The translations under genes were made by a program, and so were the position numbers. A DNA stretch of 64,000 nt from Hyperoplus lanceolatus (lineage: Eukaryota > Chordata > Actinopteri > Uranoscopiformes > Ammodytidae): positions 21,175,001 through 21,239,000 of the forward strand of contig CM049396.1 in the NCBI GenBank assembly GCA_026929865.2, in the 5' to 3' direction. Each line of letters opens with the position of its first letter. Position 1 is the first letter of the stretch. Shown one piece after another: positions 5,294 to 61,135 of the stretch. The notes beneath the pieces were generated by a model. That model did no database searches. It had not been told where the DNA came from and saw nothing but the letters and a program-made list of their open reading frames with translations.

Positions 5294-8200
5294 ATCCTAG
5301 GTGCATATACACTTACTCATCAATAGGCACGTGTGTAGGTGTCAAGCGGGGGGAAAGAAACATGCACTATAGGATAACTGTCAAGCTTGTGTGTGCTGTT
5401 TTCAGCAGATTCTCCAGATGATTTGACCCCTGGTTCTCTTCATTTTATATCATGGAGTCTGTGAGTGTGGCCGGGGCATCAGAAGTTCCTTTTGTCCTGT
5501 AAGTCTTTGACTTGAGCACTCACAGTTGTGCCAGCCTAAGCATTTATTCAGCCTACTGATCTGAGCATTCCAGTTAACCTCTCTGGGCTCCTGGCTGTAC
5601 TTATCGCTTTCACACTGAGACATATGAATTAGAAATGGCTACCAGCTTCACCTCATACTTTACTGACTTTGAGTTCAGATTTTTGTGCACGGTGGATTGG
5701 CCCAGGCTAATGACAAAACTATTGACAAAATCTACAGACACCTTTGAAAGAGCATGGATGAAGGTCACAGAGGCATTAGCTGAACATTTACCATGTGTAA
5801 TTTGAAAGATTTTGGAGCAACTCATTGCTAATGTCAGACAGCACCTCCTCACTCCATCCCCATCCATCTCTCTCCCTCTCTCTTCCTCCCCTGTCCATCT
5901 ACTCAATATGCTAACAGAGAGCGGCTAAGGTGTTGTTTACGTTGTTTAATTTTTCCTCCGGCAGACGAGTCAGCTATTAGCATATTCCCTTCATTATGGC
6001 AGTGATGAGCACGGGCCACCAGAGTGTCACAATGCCTCAGCATTATTAAAAGGCTCTCATGGGATATATCTCAGGCGCATAAATCCAAATTAGCATATGC
6101 CATTTCTCATCTGTCCCTGCCGTCATTCAGCAGCATAGAGTTTGCTCGCTTTCAACTTATGCTCAAACTACTGGTGGCAACACAGTTTTTAGTTTCTCAG
6201 CTCTCGCCGTCCGTTTCACTCACACACCCATCTTGCGCCTCTCTCCTTTAATCCTGCCCTCCAGCGTTCCACTTCCCTCTCTTCATGACTGTAGGCAAAT
6301 CTGTGGACTGTCATTTTGCAGCTGACTAGAGAGCAGTAAGGGCTGGATATGGTTGTTTTTTCAACACAGTCTCACTCCTAGAACGTCAAAGTGCGTCAAG
6401 TGTGGGCCAGGGCCTCTTACCGTCCGTCACTGACGTGAAATCAGACTTTGCCGCCGTCTGAGGACGGATTGGGGGTTCAATTCACTACAATGTAATGCCA
6501 CCCCGGGTGCTATTCATTTCTATTCATATTGTTTCATATTACTCCGTTCGTCCTTTTCTCAAGTTTACTGGCGAGTTGTTTTTTGTAAAAACAGTTGGAG
6601 TGAGCGCTCTTCTCAGCTGTATGTGTGTGTAACATCTTTGAGTGCAATCTCTGCTATCAACAAATGCACGTTGTTCAAGCAGCTGATCAAAGATAAACAA
6701 ACCTTGCTATGTCCAGAATAATATTCGTGATAACCATCAAACTAAATCGTACACATTCACTGAGTGAAGATTGTGAAAGTATGACACACATTTCTCACCA
6801 ACAATGTTATCAAAAACCCAATTAATAACTTATAAATCTTTTAAAAATCTGAATAAAAACTGTAGCAATGGCGGTCACAGCATGGATTTCATTTTCGCCT
6901 GGAGAAACTTGAAAGTCACGTGACATGTACGCTGTCCAATAGAAATGAGTAGCGCCCGGGGTGGCATTACATTGTAGTGAATTGAACCCCCAATCCGTCT
7001 TCAGACGGCGACAAAGTCTGATTTCACGTCAGTGACGGACGGTAAAGGCCAGGACACACCAGCCCGATAATCGCTGTCGTAGAGATTCGAGGGGGCGGGG
7101 ACACAAATCTGTTTGGTGTGTGCCGTGAAATCGGTGTCAATAGATGTCGTTGGGCTTCTTTTGAGCCGATTGATTGGTGGCGGGCAGTCTTTCAGTTGGA
7201 GCAATTTGATTTGTGGAGGGCTAGCGAATCAGTGAAGCCCGGAAGTGAGGCGGGTAGCACAAACAGCTAACAACAGTTAGCCATCGTTTTAATGTGTTTG
7301 TTTGTTTCGTTCAGCGAGTACTCACATGCATCAACCCCTGTTGACTGCTCGACACCAATGACCATGCTCGACACTCTCTGCTAAAAATGGTGCTATTTAT
7401 GTTCCATAAATATAAATATGTATTTCTATCCATGTTTATGATCTAGAGAGCCATCCCATCATTTCCGGCTTCCGTATTTTTTCGGGACACAATACAGATT
7501 AGCGCCGCCTGCTGTTATGGAGACATTACGTCCCGCACAAGCGCAGAGCGTACGGAAAGTCAGCAGTCGGTTTGGTGTGTTCTTTGCACTTTTTCGGCCG
7601 CGATGGGAAGACTGGAGCTCCCTGAATCGGCAGTCTCCATTTTCGGGTAGTCGGACTAGTGTTGTTTTTGTCAACAAAATGCATGACAAAATATCGTCGT
7701 CAACGAACCTTTATCACGTGACAGAAACGAGACGAGACGCAACGTAAATGGTGGTCATGTGACGAAGACTATAATCAAATATATAATGCTTTATTGTTGA
7801 CGGATAAAAACGGGACTAAATGTAGTTTACAAAAACGAAAACTCTGCTTAAATATCTCTTTATGTTCATTGACAAAAACGAGAGGACACAAAATGTTATA
7901 AGGCTATTTTGTCTCGCCATTATTATTATTTTGGAATATTTCTGTTTCCTGAGTTTCAGGGCTGCAAACAGGCAACGATTTCAGATTAAAAGCATTTCAC
8001 TGGCTTAACATGAGCATTTAACTAGACAAACGTGAGTTCGCTTTTATTTTGAAATAGCAGGAAGTTAGCAGGTGATGTTACTTCCTCAATCCCCACTCGC
8101 GGCAATATGGAAGCTAACAAAGCATTATCCCCCAAAATCAATAACACAATTCACGGAGAAAATGACTGCTGATCATTTACATTTCAGGCTGCAGCCTGAA

Positions 8201-9049
8201 GTTAGGCTAACTGTCAATATGTGGCCAAACGTACTCACGTCGTCTAGACTGGATACCATGACTCCTGTGTTCCCTGCTCTCCTGATACATGCAAAGTCAT
8301 GTTGAAAAAGTATTCCATTGTTTTCTGAACGAGTTGTAGCCCTGTTTGTGGACGTCTATCCATCAAAACTATGACGCAGGTCCTTAGCAACGGTCATTAT
8401 ACCCTTGACAGCGGTCTGTCTTGCTGGAAATAACGGACCTGTAGAATGCTGTGATTTTCAAAGTGCAATGTAATAAGTTCTGTCAACAAATTCCACTGTA
8501 TGCAGTCTGTGCTACCAATCGCATGGTTAAAACCATTTGTGTTATATCTTGTAATACAAAATCTGACTTCAGTTTACAACCAAGTCATACACAAACATTT
8601 TATTTGCACTTTGTTAATATGTTATTGTAGCTCTAGCATTCAAGCACCTTGTTTCTCTTAATTAAACTTGATGTACATTTTTTCTGGCATTGCCATTTGA
8701 AGCTATTTTATTTAGGCCTATTTATTTTATATAAATGTAGGCTATGTCATTAGACAGGAGATTTTGAAACGCAAAGAGAGGCTGTCTGAGTTCCACCAGA
8801 CTGCTGTTCAGGTTGAGGAATCCAGCATTCTTACATGTTTGGTAGCTCAAATAAATATGATGTAAATTAAATCAGAGCGTCTTCAGTGTCTGGAATTGCA
8901 TGTATTCTTGAGTCTATAAGGTAAAAATAATATAATAAGATAAGATAACCTTGTTTGACTTGTGAAATGGGGGACTTAAAGAACATTTTGATTTTGTCAG
9001 TACTATACTAGGTAATTGTACTATATTAACCCTCTGAACCCTGAGGCCT

Positions 9050-9990
9050 TTTTCTCGATTTTACATGCTTTTATAAATTACCATTTTAGAGGGCAAGTAG
9101 ATAACATAATACCCAGGTGATTCATATCAAAATGTTCAGAACACTCTCAGCTCTCAGTGTGGAAGGTTCAATGTTGCCCTAGTCCAATGTAAAAAAAAAA
9201 TATTTTGACATAAATGTTGAAATTTGAAGTCCGATTTTTGAAAAATTTCGAAATTTGTGTGAAATAATACCTTTATTCATCTGATTGAGTTATTTTGGCT
9301 CTTGAAATTGCTTCTCCAAAACATTAGCTTCTAAAATGTACTGGAATTTTTCCATAAAAAGCTTGGGAAGGGCAAAAAACATGACTAAAATTATCTTTTT
9401 GTCCAAACGTTTTTTGGGTTGAGATCTAAGGGCATTTTCTCGATTTTACATGCTTCTATAAATTACCATTTTAGAGGGCAAGTAGATCACATAATACCCA
9501 GGTGATTCATATCAAAATGTTCAGAACACTCTCAACTCTATATTAGGGAGTTTCAATTTTGTCCTAGACCAATGTGAAAAAAAATATTTTGACACAAAAG
9601 CTGCAATTTGAAGTAAGATTTTTGAAAAATTTGGAAACTTATGTGTAATAATACCTTTATTCCCCAGGACAAATTGTTTTGGCTCTTGAAATTGCCTCTC
9701 CAAAACATTAGCTTCTAAAATACACTGGAATTTTTCCAAAAAAAAGGTTGAGAAGTACAAAAAAACATGACAAAAATGATTTTTTGTCCCAACGTTTTAT
9801 GGGGTTAGGTTTAAGGGCATTTTCTCGATTTACATGCTTTTATAAATTACCATTTTAGAGGGCAAGTAGATAACATAATACCCAGGTGATTCATATCAAA
9901 ATGTTAAGAACACTCTCAGCTCTCAGTAAGGAAGGTTCAATATTGCCCTAGACCAATGTAAAAAAAATATATATTTTGCCAAATGCTGAA
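9050..9990. repeat. Subterminal tandem repeat inside piggyBac D, unit ~385 bases
   Basis: The phrase TTCTCGATTTTACATGCTT followed by a conserved ~150-base block recurs at about 9052, 9435 and 9822, with the rest of the unit similar between copies. The third copy is partial. Differences between copies are scattered substitutions and small indels. Confidence 0.85.
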
Positions 9991-10090
9991 ACTTGAAGTG
10001 CGATTTTTATAATAGATGTCACTTACAAAAAAATCATGAAGAAATACAATAATTGACTAATGTTAACATGCTAATACTAAAATAAAATAT

Positions 10091-10252
10091 GAATAGTGTG
10101 GATGCAGGAGGACTTCAGATGCTGCCAGAGGAAGGACCTGATCCACACCGTCTTGTCTCCACCAGGGAAAACTGGAAGAGAACAGACAGACAACAAATGA
10201 GCCAAGAGAAGTGAACAGGCATGAAAACAAAAAGAGTACTATCCTGCTGAGC
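10091..10252 (-). mobile_element. Fragment of the composite repeat also present at 60.5-60.8 kb
   Basis: Read on the minus strand, this stretch follows the same order as 60488-60815: a CAGGATAGTACT block, a TTGTTGTCTGT-like block, CTTCCAGTTTTCCCTGGTGG, GACGGTGTGGAT, CTCTGGCAGC and CTCCTGCATCCACACTATTC. It lacks the 28S-like 5' part and the 3' tail seen in the 60 kb copy. Its position inside D indicates either insertion into the piggyBac or capture by it. Confidence 0.65.
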
Positions 10253-10379
10253 GAAAGCATTATCCCCATTTACAAAGCATTAGCTTCTATAATGCACTGT
10301 CATTTTCCCAAAAAAAGTTGGGAAGTGCAAAAAAACATGACTAAAATCAAATTTGCCAAAATACAAATAGTCTCTTACT

Positions 10380-11827
10380 CTACTTTGACCACATATGAGG
10401 AATTAAGCAAAATGAGACTGAATAATGACTTGATACCACATATAAAAAGGTCCATGGGATGTGTAATGAAAGGGATGCATCACAATCCGTGTAAATGTGA
10501 TACCCTGTCCCTAGGTATGGCTGCACAAGTGACATTACAGCATCGTAAGAGAGGCCATGTCCGGAGGGGATGTCACTTTTCCCCGTGTAAATGTTAAAAT
10601 CTATGGTGTAGCCATTGCTTGAGTCCGCCAAAACGAACAATTTGAAACCCCACTTAGTAGGTTTGGCCTTCATGTATTGAGTCATTCCGGTTTTAACCTT
10701 TGAGGCAACCATCCTTTCATCCACAGCCAGGTTTTAGTGTGGATGAAAATAGGTCTTTGCTGCGGTTTTGATCGAATTGAGGAGAGGTTTGACCCTGAAG
10801 AGTTTGTCGAATTGTGGCGTTCCCTTCTTCCTATCATTGTTTACATCTTTATCTGGATCACTTATGTGTAAGTTCCAGGAGATGACACCAAATCTGTCCC
10901 TACTCATGACTGTTGCGGCAAATGGACAGGTTAAACTGTGGTTCTGCCTCCAGTAATCAGCAATGTGGTGTAGTCTAACCAGGGCCATGTAAAAGAGGAG
11001 TCCAATGTACTTGTAAAACTCCTCAACTGTCAAATCAGTGCATTTAAACTTTTTACCCATGGCAATTTTTTTGGCAGCCTGTTTGTTTGTGTTGCTACAG
11101 AGTGTGTGTACAGTGTGTGCAGTGAAACACAATTTGAAGAGCTCAATTGGTGTGTAGAAGTGTGTGCCTAGCTGTGGGCCAGGGGTGTGTGCAGGTTGAA
11201 ACCTGGAGACAGGAGGAGCGGTGTCCTGGTCTTCCTCAGTCTTTCAAGCCCGCTGCTGCGTAGGGGGTGCTGGTGGAGTTGGGACACGGGACCTCTTGCG
11301 GGTGGTTCTCCTCTTCTCCTGGACCTGGTGCTGCCACAGATTCACAGAAATCAGTCTCATTATCTCATAACAAAAATATTCAAACTTCACAACTTGTATT
11401 TGCAAACAACAGTGTAATAAAAGTCGATGCAAAAACATTTCCATTCTCTACTATTTGTAAATTGTAAAGGTAAATACTTTTACACAGAATACACACCTAT
11501 TACTATTATTTTCAAACAAAAGTAGTGCTATCAATAGAGAAATCAGTCCCTGTAATGTCAAGAATGCAAAATTCAAGCTATTTTACATTTACACACAGAG
11601 CTTCATTTGCAATTTCTAAAATAAATTATTATACCCGTTTATAAACAGCTGTATAGCCTACTACAATATGTTTGTTTCTCTCTCTCTCTCTCGTAACTTC
11701 TGTCTCCTCCCCTCAGCCAGACTAAATGACGACTTTCCATCTCCCACAACAGACAGCGCTGCACTGCCACCTATGCCTATGGTGGTTCATTCACCATTTT
11801 CGTAGGCTACTCATACGCAAATATATT

Positions 11828-11892
<65 letters not shown>

Positions 11893-12438
11893 GTGTCCAT
11901 TTATGCGAGACAGCTAGCAAACAAAATTGAGACACACGGGGAAGATTGTACTGTTTTGAATCTAGCCTGCATTGTTGCACCCACTAAATCAATAATGCAC
12001 AGACACTGCGGACGCGGAGAATAAAGTAAGACTATTGAAATATATTTCTATTCTCTACCTTTTGAAAACTATTACTTGTTTTCAAACAACAGAAGGCTGG
12101 CGACAAGAGTATACAGCTCTGTCACGTCAGTTCCAAAAAAAAAAATCGGTCATGTCACGGACGCAACATTCAAGCTATTTTACATGTTCACACTTAGCTT
12201 CCATTACAAAAACAGACGTTTTGTCAAATAAATGCTCTTACCCGTCTTCAAATGGATCCATGTCATCTTCATATTCCTCTTCGTCAAAGCCCCCAATGTC
12301 GGAATTGGCGTCTTCCTCATCACTGCTCCTCTGAATCTCGTCGCGGGCCTCAGCTGTCGAACATCCGCGCCATGGTGAGGTCGAAATAGGAGCATGAATA
12401 GGAGTCCTTTGTTCAGTGATTGCAAACATGTTTGACAA
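10380..12438 (-). pseudogene. piggyBac transposase (PGBD4-like), decayed
   Basis: A putative first exon, 12438 down to about 12242, encodes an acidic N-terminus rich in Asp/Glu and ends at a GTAAGA donor. The main exon runs from about 11330 to 10380 in one frame. It shows the family segments EEFYKYIGLLFYMAL, DYWRQN, and VDERMVASK followed by KPTKWGFKLFVLADS. The VDE motif holds the first catalytic Asp, and the later YTD the second. At least two in-frame stops are present: one upstream, near 11246, and a TAA just before the VDE block near 10731. After YTDC the frame loses similarity, and the third catalytic Asp and the C-terminal cysteine-rich domain are missing. It therefore cannot encode active enzyme. 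Family call firm; exon 1 assignment moderate. Confidence 0.85.
11829..11890. repeat. (CA)n microsatellite
   Basis: An uninterrupted CA run inside piggyBac D, within the presumed transposase intron. Confidence 0.95.
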
Positions 12439-13166
12439 GTAATGGGGAGGTCCTTAGTGATTACACCAAGTTGATTGGATGGTTTTTCACAAAATATGAC
12501 AGCAAGCAGCTCTACCAATCACGCAAGGGAAAGGGCCGATGACGTTTTCGCAAAATGTTGATTGACAAGCGGCTCAGCCAGTAGCGCAACGGAAAGGATT
12601 GATACATTTTCGCGCTTCTCAGCAACATATCTCTGGCTGTGAGTCACGTATACTATCGTGAGAATATGTCCCTGAAAGGGCAGAATCCCAGCTTTCCGGA
12701 GATATTTAAACCACATTGCTGCGATTTAATAATGTTAAATAATGTATTAAAACATAACGAAATCACCGATAGAACGCAGTACTGCGGGCTCCGGGTTCAG
12801 AGGGTTAACTGGGTATAATTGCATTACTAAAAAGACTAAAATACAAATGTCATTGACTAAGACTAGACTTAAATGTCATCAGATTTTGTTGACTAAGACT
12901 AGACAAAAATAGTCCCAGATAATTCTGACTAAGAGAAGACTAAAATGCTCAAGACTATTAGTCAACTGAAACTTGACTAGACTAAAAAGAGTTTAAACTG
13001 ACTAAGACTAATAAAAACTAAAATGACAATTTGACACAAAGACTGGACTAAAACTAAACTTAAAATAGGCCGCCAAAACCAACACTAAGTCGGACTGGTG
13101 TGTCCTGGCCTTTAGAGGCCCTGGCCCACAGTCGCACTTTGACGTTCTAGGAGTGAGACTGTGTTG

Positions 13167-16071: not shown

Positions 16072-17455
16072 CTGGCTGTATCTCGATTCAGGGGTTGCGG
16101 TCTACGAAGGCTGCATTTGAAGACCGATTGCGTCATAGCGGCGCGCAAAGGTTGTTCCATTTGCAAGGCTCCTTGCAAGGCTCCTCATATGCGGCCGAGA
16201 AATGGAGCCTTCGTTTCACGGTTTTGAAGGCTGCATCAGATGTATCCTTCACAGCCCAACACATCCCATGATTCATTGCGTTTTTTTCAGAGATGGCATA
16301 CAATAAAATAAAAAATAACAAAACAGCAACGTGTTGCTCCATCTTCTTAACTTTTATCTTCCTTTCTTTTTTTCTTGTACTTTTTTTTCTTTTCGTCTGG
16401 TAGGCAACTTCTTTTTCTTTTTTCCTCTGTTGACAAGGCTGTTTCCGTTGGCAGCTATCAGGGTTGCTAGGCAGCACAGGAGCGGCGAGTCCTCACGCAA
16501 AGTAACAGCTTGTTACGCAAACCGGAAATGCTCGTAAACGGAGACCATCCCATTTAACAACGCTCGTTCGGCCCTGGTTCGGCCTTCGAATCGGCCTTCA
16601 TAGAGCTGTTAAGCGGAAGTGGCGGAATTACGGGGCATGGGACCTCTCGGCTGAAAAAAAATGAATGGGAGTCTATGGAAATAATCTATTATTACTACTA
16701 TTTTCTGGTCCTAGTCATTAAATGCCTTGGATTACATATGTTACATATGTTTTGTATGGGTCTAAATGATAATTTTTCATGTGAAGAGTTTGACGGTATG
16801 TTGTATGATTATTCGTCTAACGGCTTTTGAAAAAATGTTACGAGAACAACTACAAGTCTTGTCGCCTCTGTGACGTCACCTCAACACATTCCCTCCACTT
16901 CTCGACTGACAGTGCTAATGCTAATGCTAATGGCTGGCGTGGACAACGCCAACAATCTCCCCACTCGAGAAATTGAAACTCCCCACATGTCCACTTGTGT
17001 AGTGGTTTTCGCCACGCTGAAGACTTTTGTCTTGTCATTGAAAGAAGGCGGTAAAGTGCATTAAAGACACAGCCATGTTTCTGAGCTAAGCGGTGCGATG
17101 CGAGTGGTGGTGACGTATATCATAAGTGTCAAGAGCTGTAGTCCACAAAAGCGCTCTGCACAAAACCTGGCCGTATCCAGCTTCTACTCGCTAAATTGTT
17201 CCATTCTTTGCACGACAAAATACCATCTAAATCCATACAAAACATATGTGTAATTGAAGGCATTTCATGACTGGGACCAGAAAATAATAAATTTCTTTCC
17301 ATTGACTACCGTTGTAATTTTTCGAGCCGAGAGGTCCCATGTCCCATGAAGTAAGCCACTTCCGCTTAACAGCTCTATAGGCTATAGCCTTCATAGACCG
17401 CGAGACCGCGTCCTACCAAGGAGGCGGGCTCTGTAACGGGATACAGCTCCAGTGT
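16072..17455. mobile_element. MITE F, copy 1, split by MITE E
   Basis: The sequence 16072-16600 plus 17380-17455 matches, at high identity, 54617-55225. The ends are roughly inverted: GCTGTATCTCG at the left and CGGGATACAGC at the right. The copy at 54.6 kb reads straight through the point where E interrupts this one, so F is about 0.6 kb without E. No transposase is encoded; a 114-codon minus-strand frame (16133-16477) is shared with copy 2. No clear target duplication was found. Confidence 0.8.
16603..17375. mobile_element. MITE E inserted in F copy 1
   Basis: Inverted ends GAGCTGTTAAGCGGAAGTGG (16603 on) and CCACTTCCGCTTAACAGCTC (ending 17375), flanked by TA. Inverted similarity continues for about 170 bases: the TTTTCTGGTCC / GGGACCAGAAAA and ACATATGTTTTGTATGG / CCATACAAAACATATGT blocks face each other. 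About 0.77 kb, non-coding, snap-back type. The TA flank suggests a Tc1/mariner-type target, though one extra TA remains after removal. Confidence 0.8.
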
Positions 17456-28040: not shown

Positions 28041-28050
28041 AAAAAAAAAA

Positions 28051-28353
28051 CACGTAAGAGATATAGGACTAATTGCTGGTATAAAATGATCACTGTTTTA
28101 GTCTTCATTTCATCCCCTTTTATTGTCTTATCATCATTGTGACTAATCATTGCTATTCTATTGGATGGGCCAGTGAACAGCCCTCTTAAACTCTGATTAA
28201 TAGAACAATCTCCAGTTGCTCTTAATCAGTCTTACTTCAGTTTACCAGGTCTCACACTTGATTTTGATTTCTTCTCGCTATACAAGAACTGTGATTGCAC
28301 GGCAGCCTTGATTATAGCGCTTATTGATGGGTGGTGAGTGTAATAAAAAAATT
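28051..28353. repeat. Duplicated block Y, copy 1
   Basis: About 300 bases, starting at ACGTAAGAGATATAGGAC, recur at 29395-29690 in the same orientation with only about five substitutions and one 2-base indel. Confidence 0.9.
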
Positions 28354-29238
28354 AGAGGCTTGAAACGTCATAGCTGGATATAGTATACCAAGGAATGTTA
28401 TCTGATGAGTGGTGGAGCAAAATAAAATACATTGAAGATGACAACGATGCCTCACACCCTGTGTGGACCAGAGCTGTCTTGACACCAAGGTTTCTGTACA
28501 GAGTGCTTTCTACAGGCTGTGATAATTAACCCACCTACTACAGTATATAGCTTCCTTATAGATGTTCTGGGAGCAGCCTGTCAGAATTGCGAGATAAAAA
28601 GTGACTGCACATATAAGCCCTTCTCATACCAGCGAGGTACAAAGCTCTAATGTGGTGACAGGAATCTTTGAGAAACTTCTTGGCTCGCTCTTTAATATTC
28701 AAAATAAATCACAGAATATTATATCCAGGCAATCTGGTCGGATTTCAGAAAGATAAAGCAAAAAAGCCATGTGCCGCTTTGGAAGATGGATGACGAGGAG
28801 GGGAGGCGAAGGAGGCACAACTGAGACTGTTCAAAAGAGAGATGGATTGAGGTAGTGTGCAGGGAACAAACATTCCCCTCCAGCGAGCACACGACTCAGC
28901 ATCCGTCTGCACACCCCTAAGCCTCCCTCCAATCCATCACGCCCTTGATGCACCTCTGCTTTCATCTTACCGCCCGACACCCCTGTCCCTTTCTCCCCAA
29001 CTTGTCTCAGGTAAAAAGTGAGGATGGGAGTCAGCAGTTTCTTAACCACACAAGATGTCATTCACCTCAGTTGGCAATCAATCTTTGGCTGTATCCGCAC
29101 AGAGCACACACGGGCAGTGTGCAGAGATGTGTGCTGGCAGTGGGTGGCTGTGTGTGGGTGGATGGCAGTTAGCGATACATTGTGCACTACATGGTGTTCT
29201 TTTGTATCTTCACAAGCTTAGCAGGGGTTATGAAAACC

Positions 29239-29838
29239 CATTTTTTTGAATTTCATAGAGTTAAAGATCTCCTATTAAACTACTTTTCTGGTCTTAATTT
29301 CTCATTAATGACTCCTATAGAGCAACCTGACACGAATCACAGCACAAAAACTATGTAGATTTTCGGGAAATGCTTCCTCTCAAAAAAAAATAAAACGTAA
29401 GAGATATAGGACTAATTGCTGGTATAAAAGGATCACTGTTTTAGTCTTCATTTCATCCCCTTTTATTGTCTTATCATCATTGTGACTAATCATTGCTATT
29501 CTATTGGATGGGCCAGTGAACAGCCCTCTTAAACTCTGATTAATAGAACAATCTCCAGTTGCTCTTAATCAGTCTTACTTCAGTTTACCAGGTCTCACAC
29601 TTGATTTTGATTTCTTCTCGCTGTACAAGAACTGTGATTGCACAGCAGCCTTGATTAGCGCTTATTGATGGGTAGTGAGTGTAATAAAAAAAAACATTTT
29701 TTTGAATTTCATAGAGTTAAAGATCTCCTATTAAACTACTTTTCTGGTCTTAATTTCTCATTAATGACTCCCATAGAGCAACCTGACTCGAATCACAGCA
29801 CAAAAACTATGTAGATTTTCGGGAAATGCTTCCTCTCA
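29239..29838. repeat. X-Y-X compound duplication
   Basis: Block X (29239-29382, 144 bases) is followed by Y copy 2 (about 29395-29690) and then by X again (29695-29838, also 144 bases). The two X copies differ at about two positions. Poly(A) runs lie at both junctions. No gene is affected; the block is within the presumed gpr22 leader intron. Confidence 0.9.
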
Positions 29839-35154: not shown

Positions 35155-35276
35155 AATCTCCCACAGATCTGGCCATTGTCATCGCCTAGTTTGAGCCAGA
35201 GGAAAAACAGGAAAGACCGAGCATGGTCTGGTGTGGCGGGCGCTGTTGCTATGTGTGAAGGTGTGCTGTGGCGTCA
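35155..35276 (+). promoter_or_regulatory. gpr22: gpr22 5'UTR segment with upstream ORFs
   Basis: After the acceptor at 35154 the leader contains an ATG at 35223 opening a 12-codon frame including its stop (35223-35258). A second ATG at 35251 opens a frame that overlaps the main start codon. The receptor start at 35277 is the first ATG in its frame. Such upstream frames usually lower translation of the main frame. Confidence 0.55.
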
Positions 35277-36965
35277 ATGGAGACCGAAGGCTATCGTGAC
35301 CTCCTGGAGACCAGCGATGGTCGGGGGGTAGGCCTGATGGATGGAGGGGGCGAGGCGGGGGTGGAGGAGGGCTGGGGCACACCCTATCCTCTCGGCTTCC
35401 AAGTGTCCTTGACCACTGTGCTCATAGTGGAGTTGGTGTTGGGCTTCAGCAGCAACCTGACCGTCCTCGTGCTCTACTGTGCCCAGTCCAACCTGGTGGA
35501 TTCTGTCAGTAACCTGGTCACAGTCAACCTCCACGTGCTGGACATCCTGGTGTGTCTGCTGTGTCTGCCTCTGACTGTAGCCGTGATCCTGTTGCCGGCT
35601 AATGCCAGTGGAGTTGGCAGCCTGGCCACGCTGTGCTGCTTTCATGAGGCTTGTGTCACGTTCACTAGTGTGGCCACAGCAGTCAATGTACTGGTGATCA
35701 GTTTGGACAGATATGACATCTCCGTGCGTCCAGCCACTCGTCTGCTGACCCCGAGGCGTGCAGCAGTGCTCCTGGCAGCAGTGTGGGCCGTGTCTCTGGC
35801 TGTCTTCTTCCTGCCTTTCCTCGAGGGCGACTTTTTCTCTTCGAGGGCTGAGAATGGTGAGGAGGAGGAGCCGACTGGGCCGAACAATGACTCGGAGCTC
35901 ACCACTAGACTGACCCCCATTTTTTCCTCCTTCTCCCCTTCACACTTACCCCCGACTCATCATTCATCCCCTTCACACCACCAGCCTCCAGTATGGCAGA
36001 ACAGGACACTGCTGTGCATAGGAGGGCAGGGGTATTACACAGGCCTGGCTATGTACTACCACTTGTTACTCCAAGTGCCATGCTTCTTCATCGCTGTGGC
36101 TGTCATGTTTTTCACCTACTCCAAGATCCTGCAGGCCCTCAACATTCGCATCGGCTCCCACATGCTGAGGGCTAAACGGGCAAAGGACTCCACTTGCAGG
36201 ATTCGCTGCAGGAGGCGGAGGAAGAAGGAGCTGAGCCTGCCCACAGAGGTGGTGTCCTCCAACCAGAACCAGAATCTGACCCATCCTCCTCTCATCCCTT
36301 CCCCCATCCCGACACCAACATCACCCCCGCCTCTCTCCTCCATGCCCCAGGGGATGTCTGACAGTGGAGCAACAGTCACTACCATCAGTACTGCTGCCAA
36401 CACCCCTATCGCCACAACACCAGCCACCCCTGCTTCTCCGACCCCACCTACGGCCCCAGTCCGGACCCATGCCACCTTACCATTGCCTGCCTCCTCCTTG
36501 GGTGTACAGGCCTCAGTTTCGGCCATCATCGCCTTGCGACGGGCAGTGCGCAGACACAGGGATCGCCGAGAACGTCAACGGCGCGTCCTAAAAATGTCCC
36601 TGCTCATCATAACCTCCTTCCTAGGTTGTTGGGCCCCTCTGTCTGCAGTCAATGTCCTGATCCTGTGTTTGGGTCCCAGCGATGGCCTGGTTCGAGTGCG
36701 TCTCTGCTTCTTGGCAATGGCTTATGGAACCACTATTTTCCATCCCCTGCTCTACGCTTTCACCAGACAGAAACTACGCCGTGCCCTCAAAACACGTGTC
36801 AAAAAAAGGGTAGTGTCGCTCCTACAGGTGGACCCGGCTCCTAGCGGAGGGACAGTTATTCACAACTCCTGGGTGGAATGGGGAGTCCAAAGAAAGGCTC
36901 GCAAGTCACGGGTTGAAGCCAGTGATTGCACTGATCGATGCCTCACGGAAGCAGTGAGGGAATGA
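35277..36965 (+). CDS. gpr22: GPR22, orphan class A (rhodopsin-like) G-protein-coupled receptor
   Basis: One exon encodes 562 residues; the human protein has about 433. The start ATG was chosen because the open frame upstream has only a GTG. Landmarks: TM1 about 40-66 with SSNLTV; Asp89 in TM2 (NLHVLDIL); Cys near 120-126 at the top of TM3 and Cys247 in loop 2 as the likely disulfide; DRY at 144-146; TM5 about 260-281; CWAP at 451-454 in TM6; HPLLY at 489-493 replacing NPxxY in TM7; and the GPR22-typical AYGTTIFHPLLYAFTRQKL stretch. The C-tail has VIHNSW, also GPR22-typical. GPR22 is a plasma-membrane receptor known from brain and heart in mammals, reported to be Gi/o-coupled. Odd: the second extracellular loop is expanded by about 45 residues (Glu-, Ser-, His-, Pro-rich, about 190-240), and the third intracellular loop by about 60 (Thr/Pro/Ala-rich, about 315-408). 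Whether this is the a or b teleost paralogue cannot be told here. Confidence 0.95.
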   Translation: METEGYRDLLETSDGRGVGLMDGGGEAGVEEGWGTPYPLGFQVSLTTVLIVELVLGFSSNLTVLVLYCAQSNLVDSVSNLVTVNLHVLDILVCLLCLPLTVAVILLPANASGVGSLATLCCFHEACVTFTSVATAVNVLVISLDRYDISVRPATRLLTPRRAAVLLAAVWAVSLAVFFLPFLEGDFFSSRAENGEEEEPTGPNNDSELTTRLTPIFSSFSPSHLPPTHHSSPSHHQPPVWQNRTLLCIGGQGYYTGLAMYYHLLLQVPCFFIAVAVMFFTYSKILQALNIRIGSHMLRAKRAKDSTCRIRCRRRRKKELSLPTEVVSSNQNQNLTHPPLIPSPIPTPTSPPPLSSMPQGMSDSGATVTTISTAANTPIATTPATPASPTPPTAPVRTHATLPLPASSLGVQASVSAIIALRRAVRRHRDRRERQRRVLKMSLLIITSFLGCWAPLSAVNVLILCLGPSDGLVRVRLCFLAMAYGTTIFHPLLYAFTRQKLRRALKTRVKKRVVSLLQVDPAPSGGTVIHNSWVEWGVQRKARKSRVEASDCTDRCLTEAVRE

Positions 36966-37072: not shown

Positions 37073-37473
37073 AATATGAAGAAATGTATGTATTTTCCCA
37101 ATTTTTGATTGATGGGTTGTATGTATATGTGTACACAGATGTGAGAAACATGACAACCAGTTAGTTTACAAAGGTCAGGACACATCAGAGGAACTCTGGT
37201 TGGATGCAGCTGTGGAGACAGGTCAATCCTGAGCCCTAATTAGAGCCTGTTTCCTGCTATCCTTACACAGGCCCTCATTAGTCCACCTGATGACTGATAA
37301 CGCAACCACTGTGTCGCTATGGCAACACTGGCTAAGGATTATGACAACTCCATAGCCATGGCTACTAAAATTACAAAAGTTCACCAAACGTGTAGGTTAA
37401 TGGATAGATCCATGGCAAATCTGTGCATGTGCATGATCATAATGCACAGGTAGATATAACACACAAACTCACA

Positions 37474-53358: not shown

Positions 53359-54019
53359 TAGGGCTGTGTCAAAAAATCGAAATATCGATATATCGCGATA
53401 CTTAGTTTCCCGATATCAGTATCGATTTTTATATCAAAATATCGATTTTTTTTTAATTAATTTTTTTATGTTTTTTTTTTTTTTTTTGCTTTTCAAGGCT
53501 TTATTGACAGTGCAGAGATACAGATATGAAGTGGGCAGAGAGGGAATGAAACAACCACGGGTCAGATTCAAACCCATGTCTGCTGTCAGGCCTGAGCCTC
53601 TAGGATACTGACTATTGAAGTTAGATCAGTTTTGTTTATAAAAATACTTAAGATTCACTGTGTCACAAAAGCACACTGATGTGTTTTCATTTTCATTGTG
53701 TCCTGTAGAGTTAGTACAAGAGTGAATTGGATTTGTTATTTTGATGTTATGGCAGCAGCAGCAGTGTTTGATAATTTGCCAAAACCAAAAAAAGGAAGAA
53801 AAATAGTAAAGGAAGTTGTGAATGAAATAGTTTTGACCTCATTTGTCTGTACAATTATCACTATATTGTGCTGTTATGTTTGACAAGGCAACTTGTTTAT
53901 GGAATATCCCAATATATTGTGATATATCAAGATTCGTGATATATCGTGATATATCGTATCGTGACCAGTGTATCGTGATACATATCGTATCGCGAAGTCC
54001 TTGACGATACCCAGCCCTA
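53359..54019. mobile_element. hAT-type element H
   Basis: The ends TAGGGCTG and CAGCCCTA are inverted, and the element is flanked by a perfect 8-base target duplication GTAAAGAG (53351-53358 and 54020-54027). The subterminal sequence is packed with ATATCGATAT / TATCGTGATA motifs on both sides. 661 bases, no transposase. It lies about 280 bases upstream of the first elk4 coding exon, within the presumed leader intron. Confidence 0.9.
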
Positions 54020-54616
54020 GTAAAGAGACACTGTTTTTACTTAGACATTGTTCAAGTTAGGCCAATTACTAGGAAATAAGGAAGTTACACCCAATCTGCC
54101 ATTTTTTTCATTTAAGAACACCTATAGAACGTGGCATTGTTAAGTGGCTACTGCTGACTAGTCCAAGTGAAGGCCAAACATCTTGTTCACATGTGGCTTT
54201 CAAAGCGCTGCAGAACACCACGTCCATGAAATGAAGTGCCCCTCAGTGAGGTAAAGAAAGAACCAGGAAGAAGTTAACAATGAGGCCCAAGGTTATTCAA
54301 GCAAGGACAGTAGTAACCCTGACGTAATAAGGGCAAGGGTACAGTATAGTGAACGTAATGTATTTTTCAACAGTGCGTTAATATATCAACATTAAAATGT
54401 TTCCTGTGTAAATTTAAAATGGATGTATGATTATGACCTACAGATTTCAGCCCTATGGGGACCTTTATTTGATATCAGCTTACATGTTTATTTACACCTA
54501 CACTAGACCGGCTAACCGGATATAGACCACTAGTATTGCACTCGCGATAATGCCTTCCTCTTACCGCTGTAGCCTACCTTTTATGCTCCACTCAGAACGG
54601 GAGACAACAAACCGGC

Positions 54617-55225
54617 TGTGTCTTGATTCAGGGGTTGCAGCCTACGTAGGCTGCATTTGAAGACCGATTGCGTCATAGCGGCGCACAAAGGCTGTCCCAT
54701 TTGCAAGGCTCCTTGCAAGGCTCCTCATATGCGGCCGAGAAATGCAGCCTTTGTTTCACGGTTTTGAAGGCTGCATCAGATGTATCCTTCGTGGCCCAAC
54801 ATATCCCAAGATTCATTGCGTTTTTTTCAGAGATTGCATAAAATAAAATAAAAAATAACAGAACAGCAACGTGTTGCTCCATCTTCTTAACTTTTATCTT
54901 CCTTTCTTTTTTTCTTGTACTTTTTTTTCTTTTCGTCTGGTAGGCAACTTCTTTTTCTTTTTTCCTCCATTGACAAGGCTGTCTCCGTTGGCAGCAATCA
55001 GGGTTGCTAGGCAGCACAGGAGTGGCGAGTCGTCACGCAAGGTAACGGCTTGTTACGTAAAACGGAAATACTCGTAAACGGAGGCCTGCGGAGACCGTCT
55101 CATTTAACAAGGCTTGTTGGCCTTGGAATCGGCCTTAAAATCGGCCTTCATAGGCTATAGCCTTCATAGACCGCGAGACTGCGCCCTACCAAGTGCGTGG
55201 TCTCTGTAATGGGACATAGCTACAG
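54617..55225. mobile_element. MITE F, copy 2 (uninterrupted)
   Basis: Matches 16072-16600 plus 17380-17455 in the same orientation. It provides the empty-site sequence for element E (reads CGGCCTTCATAGGCTATAG). The 114-codon minus-strand frame seen in copy 1 is intact here too (54673-55017), with about a dozen amino-acid differences. Confidence 0.85.
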
Positions 55226-55262
55226 TGTGCGCGTGTGTTTGATACGGTTTGATAGTATCCAG

Positions 55263-56201
55263 TAGGGATGGGCATTTTAAGAAATTCAACTGATCGATCA
55301 TCGGGAAAATTAACGAGCAATTATCGAGCAATCGTTATCTTTTTTTACATATTAAAAAATGCCAACAGAACATCCAAAATACAGCGTTTTTACCATAGAC
55401 TGTATACAAGAGGTTTTTACTCAATTACATCTTTATTCCAAGATATTCTAGGCAAACAACAATCTATTAAGACAAGGCAACTTTTTAAAATAAAATAATA
55501 ATAAAATGCGGCGCTGGTGAAAGCCCGAGGCTATGAGCCAACAAGGAGCCTATGCTACGATACCTTTAAAGTTTAAACACATATGCGCCTCCTAAGATGC
55601 TGCCAAAGACTGCATAAGGGCACGACACGTTTCTCTGAGTGATAAAGGACCTAACGTTACTTCATCTAATAGACAAAATGTGCAAATTATTTCCCTGATG
55701 AAGGCGAAGTAGGAAAGCATAGACGCTAATGTTAGCTGCTAATGCTAGCAGCGCTAACGTGACACGTTTAACAGGGTCGGATGTAGGCTTCAATGTACAA
55801 GTGGTACATAATTCGGTTTGTTTAAGTGTTGTACTTATAGAAGGTTTCACAATGCTTAATGAACTTAGTTATTTTCGGTTCTAAAGCTGTCCGGTCCGAT
55901 GCCAAACTTCTCCTTAACTTTTTCCTGTTTATGTTTTGAGATCTACGGCAGCTCGCAGGCTGCTGCCTGAGCCTGTTCTGTTGTCTCCTACTACTAGTTA
56001 AGTATCTCTCCCTGCTGATTGGATGTTTAATTGCTGCCCATACAGTCTTTGGTGCTGCCTGCCACATAGTGAAACTAATTGCTGTGCTGCCGGACTCACA
56101 CTGCGCAACACAACGGCTATATGATCGATAACAATTTCACGTGATTGACAATATTCTTAACGAGCAATGATCGATTAATCGATTAATTATGCCCATCCCT
56201 A
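55263..56201. mobile_element. hAT-type element G
   Basis: Starts TAGGGATGGGCAT and ends ATGCCCATCCCTA (perfect inverted ends), flanked by a perfect 8-base duplication GTATCCAG (55255-55262 and 56202-56209). GATCGAT-rich subterminal sequence occurs on both sides. 939 bases and no transposase frame, hence non-autonomous. It lies about 40 bases beyond MITE F copy 2. Confidence 0.9.
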
Positions 56202-58452: not shown

Positions 58453-58967
58453 CAGTCATGCTCGAAATGATTCACCCTGGCAAATTTTTACATAAACTTA
58501 CTTTTATTCAACCAGCAAGTTTTTTTCTTAATTGGAAATGACACAGGCTTCTCCCAGAAGATAATAAGACGATGTACAAGAGGCATCATTGTGAAAAACA
58601 TTTTTCTTCAGCTTTTATTTGTATTTGAACAAAAAGTGGCATGTCAAATTATTCATACCCTTCTCAATAATCAAAAGAAAAAGCCTTTATTAGCTATTAT
58701 AGCAATCAAATGCTTCCTATGATTGCTGACCAGCTTTTTGTATGTCTCCACTAGTTTTTTTGCCCATTCATCTTTAGCATAGAGCTCAAACTCTTTCAGT
58801 TTGGAGGGTCTCATTGCCATCACCCTGATCTTTAGCTCCCTCCAAAGAGTCTCAATTGAATTCAAGTCAGGACTATGGCTTGGCCTTAAAACGTTAATGT
58901 GTTTGTCCGCTAACCATTTCTTCACCACTCTTGCTAAGCGTTTTGGGACGTTGTAAGTGGAAAACAC
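58453..58967 (-). pseudogene. Tc1-like transposase fragment and one terminal end
   Basis: The minus-strand frame 58967-58671 encodes 98 residues of the C-terminal part of a Tc1/mariner transposase. The block SPDLNSIETLWRELK contains the third acidic catalytic residue (Glu). The N-terminal DNA-binding part and the first two Asp are missing. Beyond the stop the sequence continues to a terminal-repeat-like end starting CAGTCATGCTCGAAATGATT at 58453, preceded by TA. It is a 5'-truncated remnant. Confidence 0.85.
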
Positions 58968-59054
58968 AATCTATTGATTATTTCAATTATCAAGTTATTT
59001 TGAAAACAGAATGCCTACAAGATTTATTTTATGTTTTAAACGACCAATAACCTC

Positions 59055-60210: not shown

Positions 60211-60226
60211 ACTGCTAAACTCAAGA

Positions 60227-60259
<33 letters not shown>

Positions 60260-60377
60260 TATTCCCTCGGTAGTGGCGAGCAAAGAGGAAAGAGCCCTGC
60301 ACCGAATCCCCGTCCGACAGGCGGACATGGGAAATATGGTGTACGGAAGACCGCTTGCCCGGTGCCACTCGGGGGCC
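60211..60377 (+). pseudogene. 28S rRNA 5'-region fragment
   Basis: Recognised from memory of the highly conserved start of 28S rRNA. About one base in eight to ten differs, so it is not a functional rRNA gene, and no flanking ITS or 5.8S sequence is present. Confidence 0.8.
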
Positions 60378-61135
60378 TTAAGCACTCCCCATGCTACACG
60401 ACTGACTGAGTTCTGTGCGGAATCAGCCATCCTAGGAACGGACCCTCCCTGCCTACTGCTGCCTCACACCAGCACTGATTCATCGTCCATCAGGATAGTA
60501 CTATTTCTACTCGCATGCTTGTTCAATCTTTAAATCTTTAAATTCATTTTGCTTCACTCATTGGTTGTCTGTCCTCTTCCAGTTTTCCCTGGTGGAGAAG
60601 AGACGGTGTGGATTCGGTCCCCACCCTCCCCTCTGGCAGCAGCTGAGAATGGATCATCAACGTGTAAGATGTTACAGTGGTTAAGGACGCCGCCTGGAGA
60701 TGTTGGATGTAATCCTGGCACTGGAAACCTTAGATTTCCCTGGTGAAACGAGACGGTGTGGATCAGGCTCCCCCTCTGGCAGCTTCTGAAGTCCTCCTGC
60801 ATCCACACTATTCGCGCTTTACTTTAGTAAACATTATGTAAACATCTGGTCAATGATCAAAATCCTTCGTGATTTTCCCTACTTATGACATCTATTGCAG
60901 CATGTCCGTCCTGGGAGAGGGATCCCTTACTTTGTCAACTCTCCCTGAGATTTCTTCAAACTTTTTTTGTAATCCCGGTAAAGGGTTTTTTACTGGGAGT
61001 TTTTTCTCAGCCAAGCTAAGGGTGTAAGGGCAGGGTGTCATATTGTATCATATTGTATGGAATGTAAAGACCACTGAGGCAAATGTCAATTTGTGATATT
61101 GGGCTATACAAATAAAACTGATTTGATTTGATTTC
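60211..61135 (+). mobile_element. Composite retroelement with 28S rRNA-derived head and LINE-like tail
   Basis: Positions 60211-60377 follow the conserved 5' region of vertebrate 28S rRNA, with scattered substitutions: GCGGAGGAAAAGAAACTAAC, GAGCCC-GC-CCGAATCCCC, GTACGGAAGACCGCTTGCC and CTCGGGGGCC in the correct order and spacing. After GGGGCC similarity stops. A middle follows with two related CCCTGGTG...GACGGTGTGGAT...CTCTGGCAGC modules (about 60590 and 60735). Then comes a CCTGGGAGAGGGATCCCTTA / AAAGGGTTTTTTACTGGGAG block, and finally ATTGGGCTATACAAATAAAA plus a short (TGATT)n run. Head, body and LINE-like repeated tail is the plan of a SINE. It could instead be two adjacent repeats. The middle recurs inside piggyBac D. 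Confidence 0.65.

Follow-up and report, generated by a model that had tools for sequence, protein, structure and literature searches.

Four nested DNA transposons in the Hyperoplus lanceolatus genome and unequal target copies in a Harbinger-type family

We analyzed a 64,000-nucleotide stretch of the genome of the fish Hyperoplus lanceolatus (assembly GCA_026929865.2, contig CM049396.1, positions 21,175,001 to 21,239,000; referred to here as the window), in which an earlier reading of the letters alone (the original prediction) had proposed a nest of four DNA transposons. The 6.8-kb stretch from 6362 to 13166 consists of four cut-and-paste transposons, each inside the next (Table 1): an outer element with long terminal inverted repeats (TIRs) (A), a Harbinger-type miniature inverted-repeat transposable element (MITE) (B), a hAT-type element (C), and a piggyBac element (D). 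The predicted boundary coordinates of all four elements were right to the base. As a nest, the locus adds one more case to a commonplace phenomenon; the part worth following is the unequal target copies of B.

Table 1. Window coordinates of the four nested elements, their target copies, and their internal features
Feature	Position	Strand	Basis
A, left portion (left TIR at 1-163 followed by right-end body)	6362..7045	+	Inverted ends, family comparison
CTATT, 5-bp microhomology at A's private internal-deletion junction	6520..6524	+	Six larger relatives
TAA, left target copy of B (equal to the empty site of A relatives)	7043..7045	+	32/32 spanning ends
B, left 611 bp; Harbinger-type MITE (~627 bp without C)	7046..7656	+	Ends, family copies
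AGTCGGAC, 8-bp target copy on C's left side, within B's right TIR	7649..7656	+	Sequence
C (hAT-type; 1652 bp once D is removed), left part	7657..9029	+	Ends, relatives
TTAA, left target copy of D	9026..9029	+	D-less TTAA in 10/10 C relatives
D; piggyBac superfamily, 3775 bp, broken transposase gene	9030..12804	-	Ends, profile and PDB matches
384-bp tandem repeat, 2.5 copies, on D's left side	9044..10008	+	Sequence
Captured repeat fragment in D, resembling 60476-60896	10011..10259	-	8/8 D relatives read
piggyBac transposase remains, one in-frame stop (10734-10736)	10383..11243	-	Pfam, PDB similarity
TTAA, right target copy of D	12805..12808	+	C relatives
C, right part (contains 36-bp tandem repeats)	12809..13087	+	Ends, relatives
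AGTCGGAC, 8-bp target copy on C's right side	13088..13095	+	Sequence
B, last 16 bp on the right, following C's right target copy	13096..13111	+	Ends, family copies
TTA, target copy on B's right side (unlike the empty site at the middle base)	13112..13114	+	A relatives
A, right end (outer portion of the right TIR)	13115..13166	+	Inverted ends

Four element families at one locus

The ends of A are 34-nt perfect inverted repeats (6362-6395 and 13133-13166). Those of B (7046-13111) pair at 17 of 17 bases, those of C (7657-13087) pair over the first 8 bases and are flanked by exact 8-bp target copies, and those of D pair at 12 of 12 bases beside TTAA. Chance expectations were taken from 20 first-order Markov sequences of window size, with low-complexity words excluded from all tests but the TTAA one. 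None of the 20 simulated sequences contained a perfect 34-nt inverted pair or a TTAA-plus-12-nt pair, 17-nt inverted pairs occurred at a mean of 0.05 (maximum, 1), and 8-nt TIRs with an identical 8-nt flank occurred at a mean of 0.15 (maximum, 1). Under this last test the real window gave five matches, C among them; two of the others resemble further hAT-type ends, one lies within long inverted arms, and one begins in a T run.

The host genome (806.7 Mb; 527 contigs) was searched with each element, and the best 40 candidates per family search were scored; the copy numbers are lower bounds. The search with A returned 97 rows, and those with B, C, and D returned 1984, 1798, and 1983 first-look candidates, respectively. 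The best long-match identities to the window copies were 96% (A), 94% (B), 97% (C), and 98% (D), by which D looks the youngest while A and B are not separated. The four inverted-end pairs belong to four separate repeat families, so the check that the original prediction had set for itself, namely, whether these pairs occur as separate elements elsewhere in the genome, came out in its favor.

With B removed, the arms of A pair over 163 columns (155 identical columns, 3 gap columns, and 5 mismatches). A had been presented as a whole element, but family comparison indicates that A, at 736 bp, arose by internal deletion within a family of larger long-TIR elements. Among the 97 matching rows, only that of the window copy covers bases 1 to 684 of A. 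The eight relatives in which both ends are present measure 1.3 to 8.8 kb, and their ends align with the rightmost 420 to 583 columns of A plus its first 163 bases. Because the stretches fused in the window copy lie apart in all six relatives compared at the junction and CTATT stands at both stretches in five of these six larger relatives (the sixth, L027, has TTATT at one), we regard A here as the product of a private internal deletion with a 5-bp microhomology.

The target-site duplication (TSD) of the A family, in the eight elements with both ends, is an exact 7 bp in six, 8 bp in one, and absent in one; a ninth relative (L028) was excluded because of a truncated end. A search of six open reading frames (ORFs) of L022 and L023 for an A-family transposase gave only a reverse transcriptase in L023 (RVT_1) above the Pfam cutoff; smaller ORFs are present in L021, L024, and L026. 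Three A-family elements of 5.8 to 8.8 kb (L022, L023, and L027) carry extra DNA at one common interior point. We also considered 6417-7045 as a further layer, a separate TA-target element at the center of the palindromic A, given that its 108-nt arms (6417-6524 and 6938-7045) form an inverted repeat on their own. Other family members have the same 163 bp as one continuous TIR, and this candidate was ruled out with next to no probability left to it.

B belongs to a very large family. Exact 18-base B ends with TAA or TTA number 2326 (626 plus 617 and 533 plus 550), and those with TGA or TCA number 50 (32 plus 18). The suggestion that B would be hard to detect did not hold up, given the 611 contiguous bases on its left side and at least 2326 exact family ends in the genome. 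As expected for the 3-bp TWA (W, A or T) duplications of PIF/Harbinger elements, equal TWA copies flank 31 of 36 relatives, and the other five have TWA on both sides in unequal form. B resembles PIF/Harbinger (Tourist-like) MITEs such as mPing in its 3-bp TWA copies, short TIRs, very high copy number, and lack of any coding sequence found in B, as far as the portions of the sources consulted describe those elements (PMC4561436, PMC2836001). A 2-bp TA target was rejected: it would need a 1-base loss relative to the empty site of 32 A-family ends, and it misfits the TTA-flanked copies. A near match to the B end at 37172 was judged by eye not to be a B copy.

C shares with the hAT superfamily, as outlined in the part of PMC2874221 consulted, a heterogeneous 8-bp TSD and a short TIR beginning TAGTGTTG. 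Exact 8-bp duplications flank the window copy and nine of 10 C relatives, and the tenth has no readable right end. C differs from the superfamily in that no transposase was seen in the two ORFs lying wholly or partly within it, the only ones searched; an autonomous partner was not sought.

D is likewise typical of its superfamily in its TTAA target and DDE_Tnp_1_7 transposase (PMC2874221, same portion). TTAA stands on both sides of D, and the right-end TTAA is present in all eight D relatives read. DDE_Tnp_1_7 matched D in two adjoining fragments (E values, 4.2e-22 and 7.8e-18), and the best sequence relatives in PDB were piggyBac-type transposase chains. A complete transposase was not found in D, where similarity stops at position 212 of the 349 positions of the Pfam profile and no trace of the last third was found. 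D is a nonautonomous piggyBac member. Over the searched part (10360-12804), 30 of the 43 other D rows are full length at 94 to 98% identity, so it was in the truncated form that the family multiplied. The D family departs from the superfamily in that its amplified members share 384-bp subterminal repeats as well as the truncation of the transposase gene; in the eight relatives read, the 384-bp repeat extends further left. The captured fragment was considered as a fifth layer inside D and ruled out: it is present in all eight of these relatives and so predates the insertion of D at this locus.

Empty sites and the order of insertion

Each inner element was absent from the corresponding site in the other copies of its host element. 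The B site was unoccupied in all 32 A-family ends readable across it (23 loci), and TAA was kept in every one. This count required an unbroken match, and the sole nonspanning match in the 23 loci ends with the fetched stretch. The claim that excising B rebuilds the sequence of A was likewise borne out, with the predicted ACGGTAAGAGGCCCT exact in 26 of these 32 ends and TAA without an insert in all 32. The C site was empty in all 38 B copies whose right end could be read, 23 of which run unbroken through the site, while the 15 others have the right end straight after the 611-base match. The 39th copy (L055) breaks off at base 608 into other sequence and contains no C. At the D site, all 10 C copies read have an undisturbed TTAA.

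These sites support the predicted four-level nesting and the order of insertion from A through B and C to D. The inner element was found at the same site in no other copy examined, at all three inner steps; stepwise insertion at this locus is therefore the simplest reading, and each element apparently arrived here individually rather than within a moving composite, presumably moved by transposases encoded elsewhere in the genome. In the proposed sequence of events, the long-TIR element A would have inserted first, with its interior lost between two CTATT repeats either before or after the other insertions. B would then have entered at a TAA within A's right TIR, and C, presumably a nonautonomous hAT-type element, would have entered B's right TIR, duplicating AGTCGGAC. 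Finally, D, already with its captured repeat and truncated transposase gene, would have inserted at a TTAA in C. We put the probability of this joint reading, four unrelated class II families inserted in succession by these four steps, at roughly 95%. The idea that four integration chemistries could be dated against each other stands in part: the signatures are distinct (7 bp in the A family, TWA for B, 8 bp for C, and TTAA for D), but nesting gives the order of events and no dates.

Several points weigh against this reading. The window copy of A has no clean TSD: its flanks, TGTTTTTT and TCTTTTTT, are alike at 7 of 8 positions in a T run, but over the 7 bp typical of the family they agree at 5 of 7. 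Taken at 8 bp, they look like a decayed duplication, which the original prediction had overlooked. The empty sites are all paralogous and from the host genome, none being orthologous sites of related species. The fetched stretches of the D relatives stop short of the left ends, and the copies examined were the best-scoring 40 or fewer per family, not a random sample.

In the excerpts consulted, nested retroposons are used for relative dating (TinT; PMC2910653), and nested transposable elements are treated as routine in fish libraries (PMC6404401). The window nest is like nested transposons generally in that the younger lies within the older and the nesting itself reveals the order; it differs in having four DNA-transposon layers, four target signatures, and paralogous empty sites at the inner steps. 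The nested retrotransposons of maize are reportedly a further case. The nest is a clean teaching case, with the preinsertion site visible in the other copies of each outer element. A literature search by TIR letters listed matches whose titles were unrelated to transposons. Scans of viral and prokaryotic contigs with an A end, a B end, and a repeat tail from the window, and a transposase scan, gave no match; the repeat-tail scan, intended as a control for fish DNA, was itself empty, making these scans uninformative.

Unequal target copies in the B family

Because B landed inside a multicopy element, its exact target is known: all 32 A-family ends keep TAA. The right copy at the window locus, TTA, therefore departs from the target, and its recognition as nontarget sequence led to a pattern that extends across the family.

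Two sets of B copies were compared. The first was selected by similarity to B's body, independently of the TSD. Of the 39 other scored copies, 38 were readable (L055 was dropped), and two with a broken left end were set aside, leaving 36. Their target copies were TAA/TAA in 16, TTA/TTA in 15, TAA/TTA in four, and TTA/TAA in one. All five differences were at the middle base and between T and A, with no C or G there, and none of the 72 outer-base pairs differed. The second set comprised all pairs of exact B ends 400 to 720 bp apart on one contig (C1) and contained 43 equal and eight unequal copies of 51 (seven TAA/TTA and one TTA/TAA). The two sets share two copies, one unequal and one equal. 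A middle-base T/A difference was thus present in 14 to 16% of copies over the two sets, and unequal TSDs (TAA/TTA) are a trait of the B family. The excess of middle over outer positions in the first set was significant (Fisher test, p = 0.003). Within hAT family C, used for comparison, none of 72 TSD positions differed (nine copies, 8 positions each), and adding these positions to the test gave p = 0.0003.

A simple account would be decay, in which originally equal TAA/TAA copies mutated; a single substitution would be enough, and B copies are ~1 to 7% diverged from the consensus. The restriction of the differences to T/A at the middle base speaks against this account, as does the absence of any difference at the outer positions and in family C. 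A middle C or G was present at just 50 of 2376 exact ends. Fourteen of these 50 TGA/TCA ends form seven matched pairs (one pair 1352 bp apart), and therefore at most 36 of 2376 ends (1.5%) could reflect decay of W to C or G, and decay should not produce T/A swaps any more often than this. Mismatched copies on C1 were also no more diverged (mean, 0.043; all eight) than matched copies (0.051; the first 12 of 43; p = 0.85). Given the confinement to T/A at the middle base, the rarity of C and G, and the lack of an age excess, decay is not the main cause of the unequal copies. We consider it quite unlikely for the family, yet possible for the single window copy.

At G000:C5:150533-152118, the rare TCA target flanks two pairs of B ends that are identical in orientation and spacing and lie 960 bp apart. 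They look like a local duplication of a single insertion.

Gene conversion between B copies could also swap the middle W if tracts reached the last shared bases. The outer T and A are common to nearly all copies, so that a tract could stop just past the W, and the family is very large. Conversion predicts more mismatches in older copies, an excess that was not seen in this small sample. It also gives no account of the excess of TAA/TTA over TTA/TAA (10:2 over both sets; p = 0.04), which is itself marginal. We regard conversion as unlikely.

A third explanation, to which we give even odds, is carry-over from the donor site: the 3-nt TWA overhangs of the donor would anneal to the target TWA despite a W:W mismatch in the middle and would be ligated in some events. 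It would account for T/A differences limited to the middle base at 14 to 16% of copies, and for the window copy, where TAA in all 32 A relatives read means that the right TTA is not target derived. It also agrees with the model published for mPing, in which excision proceeds by staggered cleavage of the target copies with proposed 5' overhangs (PMC4561436, in the portion available). By analogy with the mPing geometry, excised B would carry one strand of the donor TWA at each end. If an overhang were ligated instead of the gap being filled, a W:W heteroduplex would form wherever donor and target differ, and one target copy might end up donor derived.

Other observations fit donor carry-over less well. 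In the consulted portion of PMC4561436, 45 of 46 new insertions of TCA-flanked mPing lie in TTA or TAA, and retained donor bases (TCA) are not mentioned there. To produce the marginal TAA/TTA excess, carry-over would have to preserve the donor base at the A:A end, but mPing excision repair tolerated T:T better (PMC4561436, same portion), so that the direction is not a simple consequence of the mPing findings. A second mismatched B copy with a readable empty site (L053) is not a clean case either: 5 bp of flank are missing relative to ten relatives, and an off-target TAA stands at the left end with no clean middle-base swap. A later deletion could explain this. The flank of another copy (L044) is the end of another repeat, and the target is not readable there.

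We tentatively suggest, at somewhat less than even odds, that a vertebrate Harbinger-type MITE routinely brings a donor-derived target base to its new site, that about one in seven insertions is unequal from the moment of insertion, and that the TSD arises partly by ligation of donor overhangs rather than purely by gap filling. If the unequal copies are made at insertion, the routine annotation requirement of identical TSDs would overlook ~15% of the true copies that such families contain, and one step of Harbinger integration would become testable from sequence alone. B differs from mPing-like MITEs in that about one in seven copies has unequal TAA/TTA; the portion of PMC4561436 consulted describes such pairs as engineered. 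That report was the only one clearly on topic among the matches listed in a literature search for unequal target copies, which does not imply absence in print.

Other features of the window

The window contains a second nest with its empty site: a ~0.8-kb element at 16600-17378 with ~189-bp inverted arms (76% alike) lies inside a repeat copy, and the counterpart repeat at 54614-55230 (compared at 55120-55190) is without it. Two more elements (53359-54019 and 55263-56201) have hAT-like ends, TAGGGCTG and TAGGGATGGGCAT, with 8-bp target copies (GTAAAGAG and GTATCCAG) that match exactly. At 28041-29838, two pairs of direct repeats of 311 and 150 bp (28041-28351 with 29384-29692 and 29233-29382 with 29689-29838; 97% identical) are interleaved and represent either a duplication or retroelement remains.

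A fragment of eukaryotic 28S rRNA (Rfam LSU_rRNA_eukarya; 55.2 bits), unreported in the whole-window scan, lies at 60211-60290, just upstream of a repeat. The tail of this downstream repeat resembles what we take to be the tails of fish long or short interspersed nuclear elements, and the fragment and repeat together are possibly an rRNA-containing retroposon. A DDE_3 transposase fragment slightly below the Pfam cutoff is present at 58674-58970 (minus strand), and ORFs on the plus strand encode a 7tm_1 receptor (35259-36962) and a Kunitz domain (444-899).

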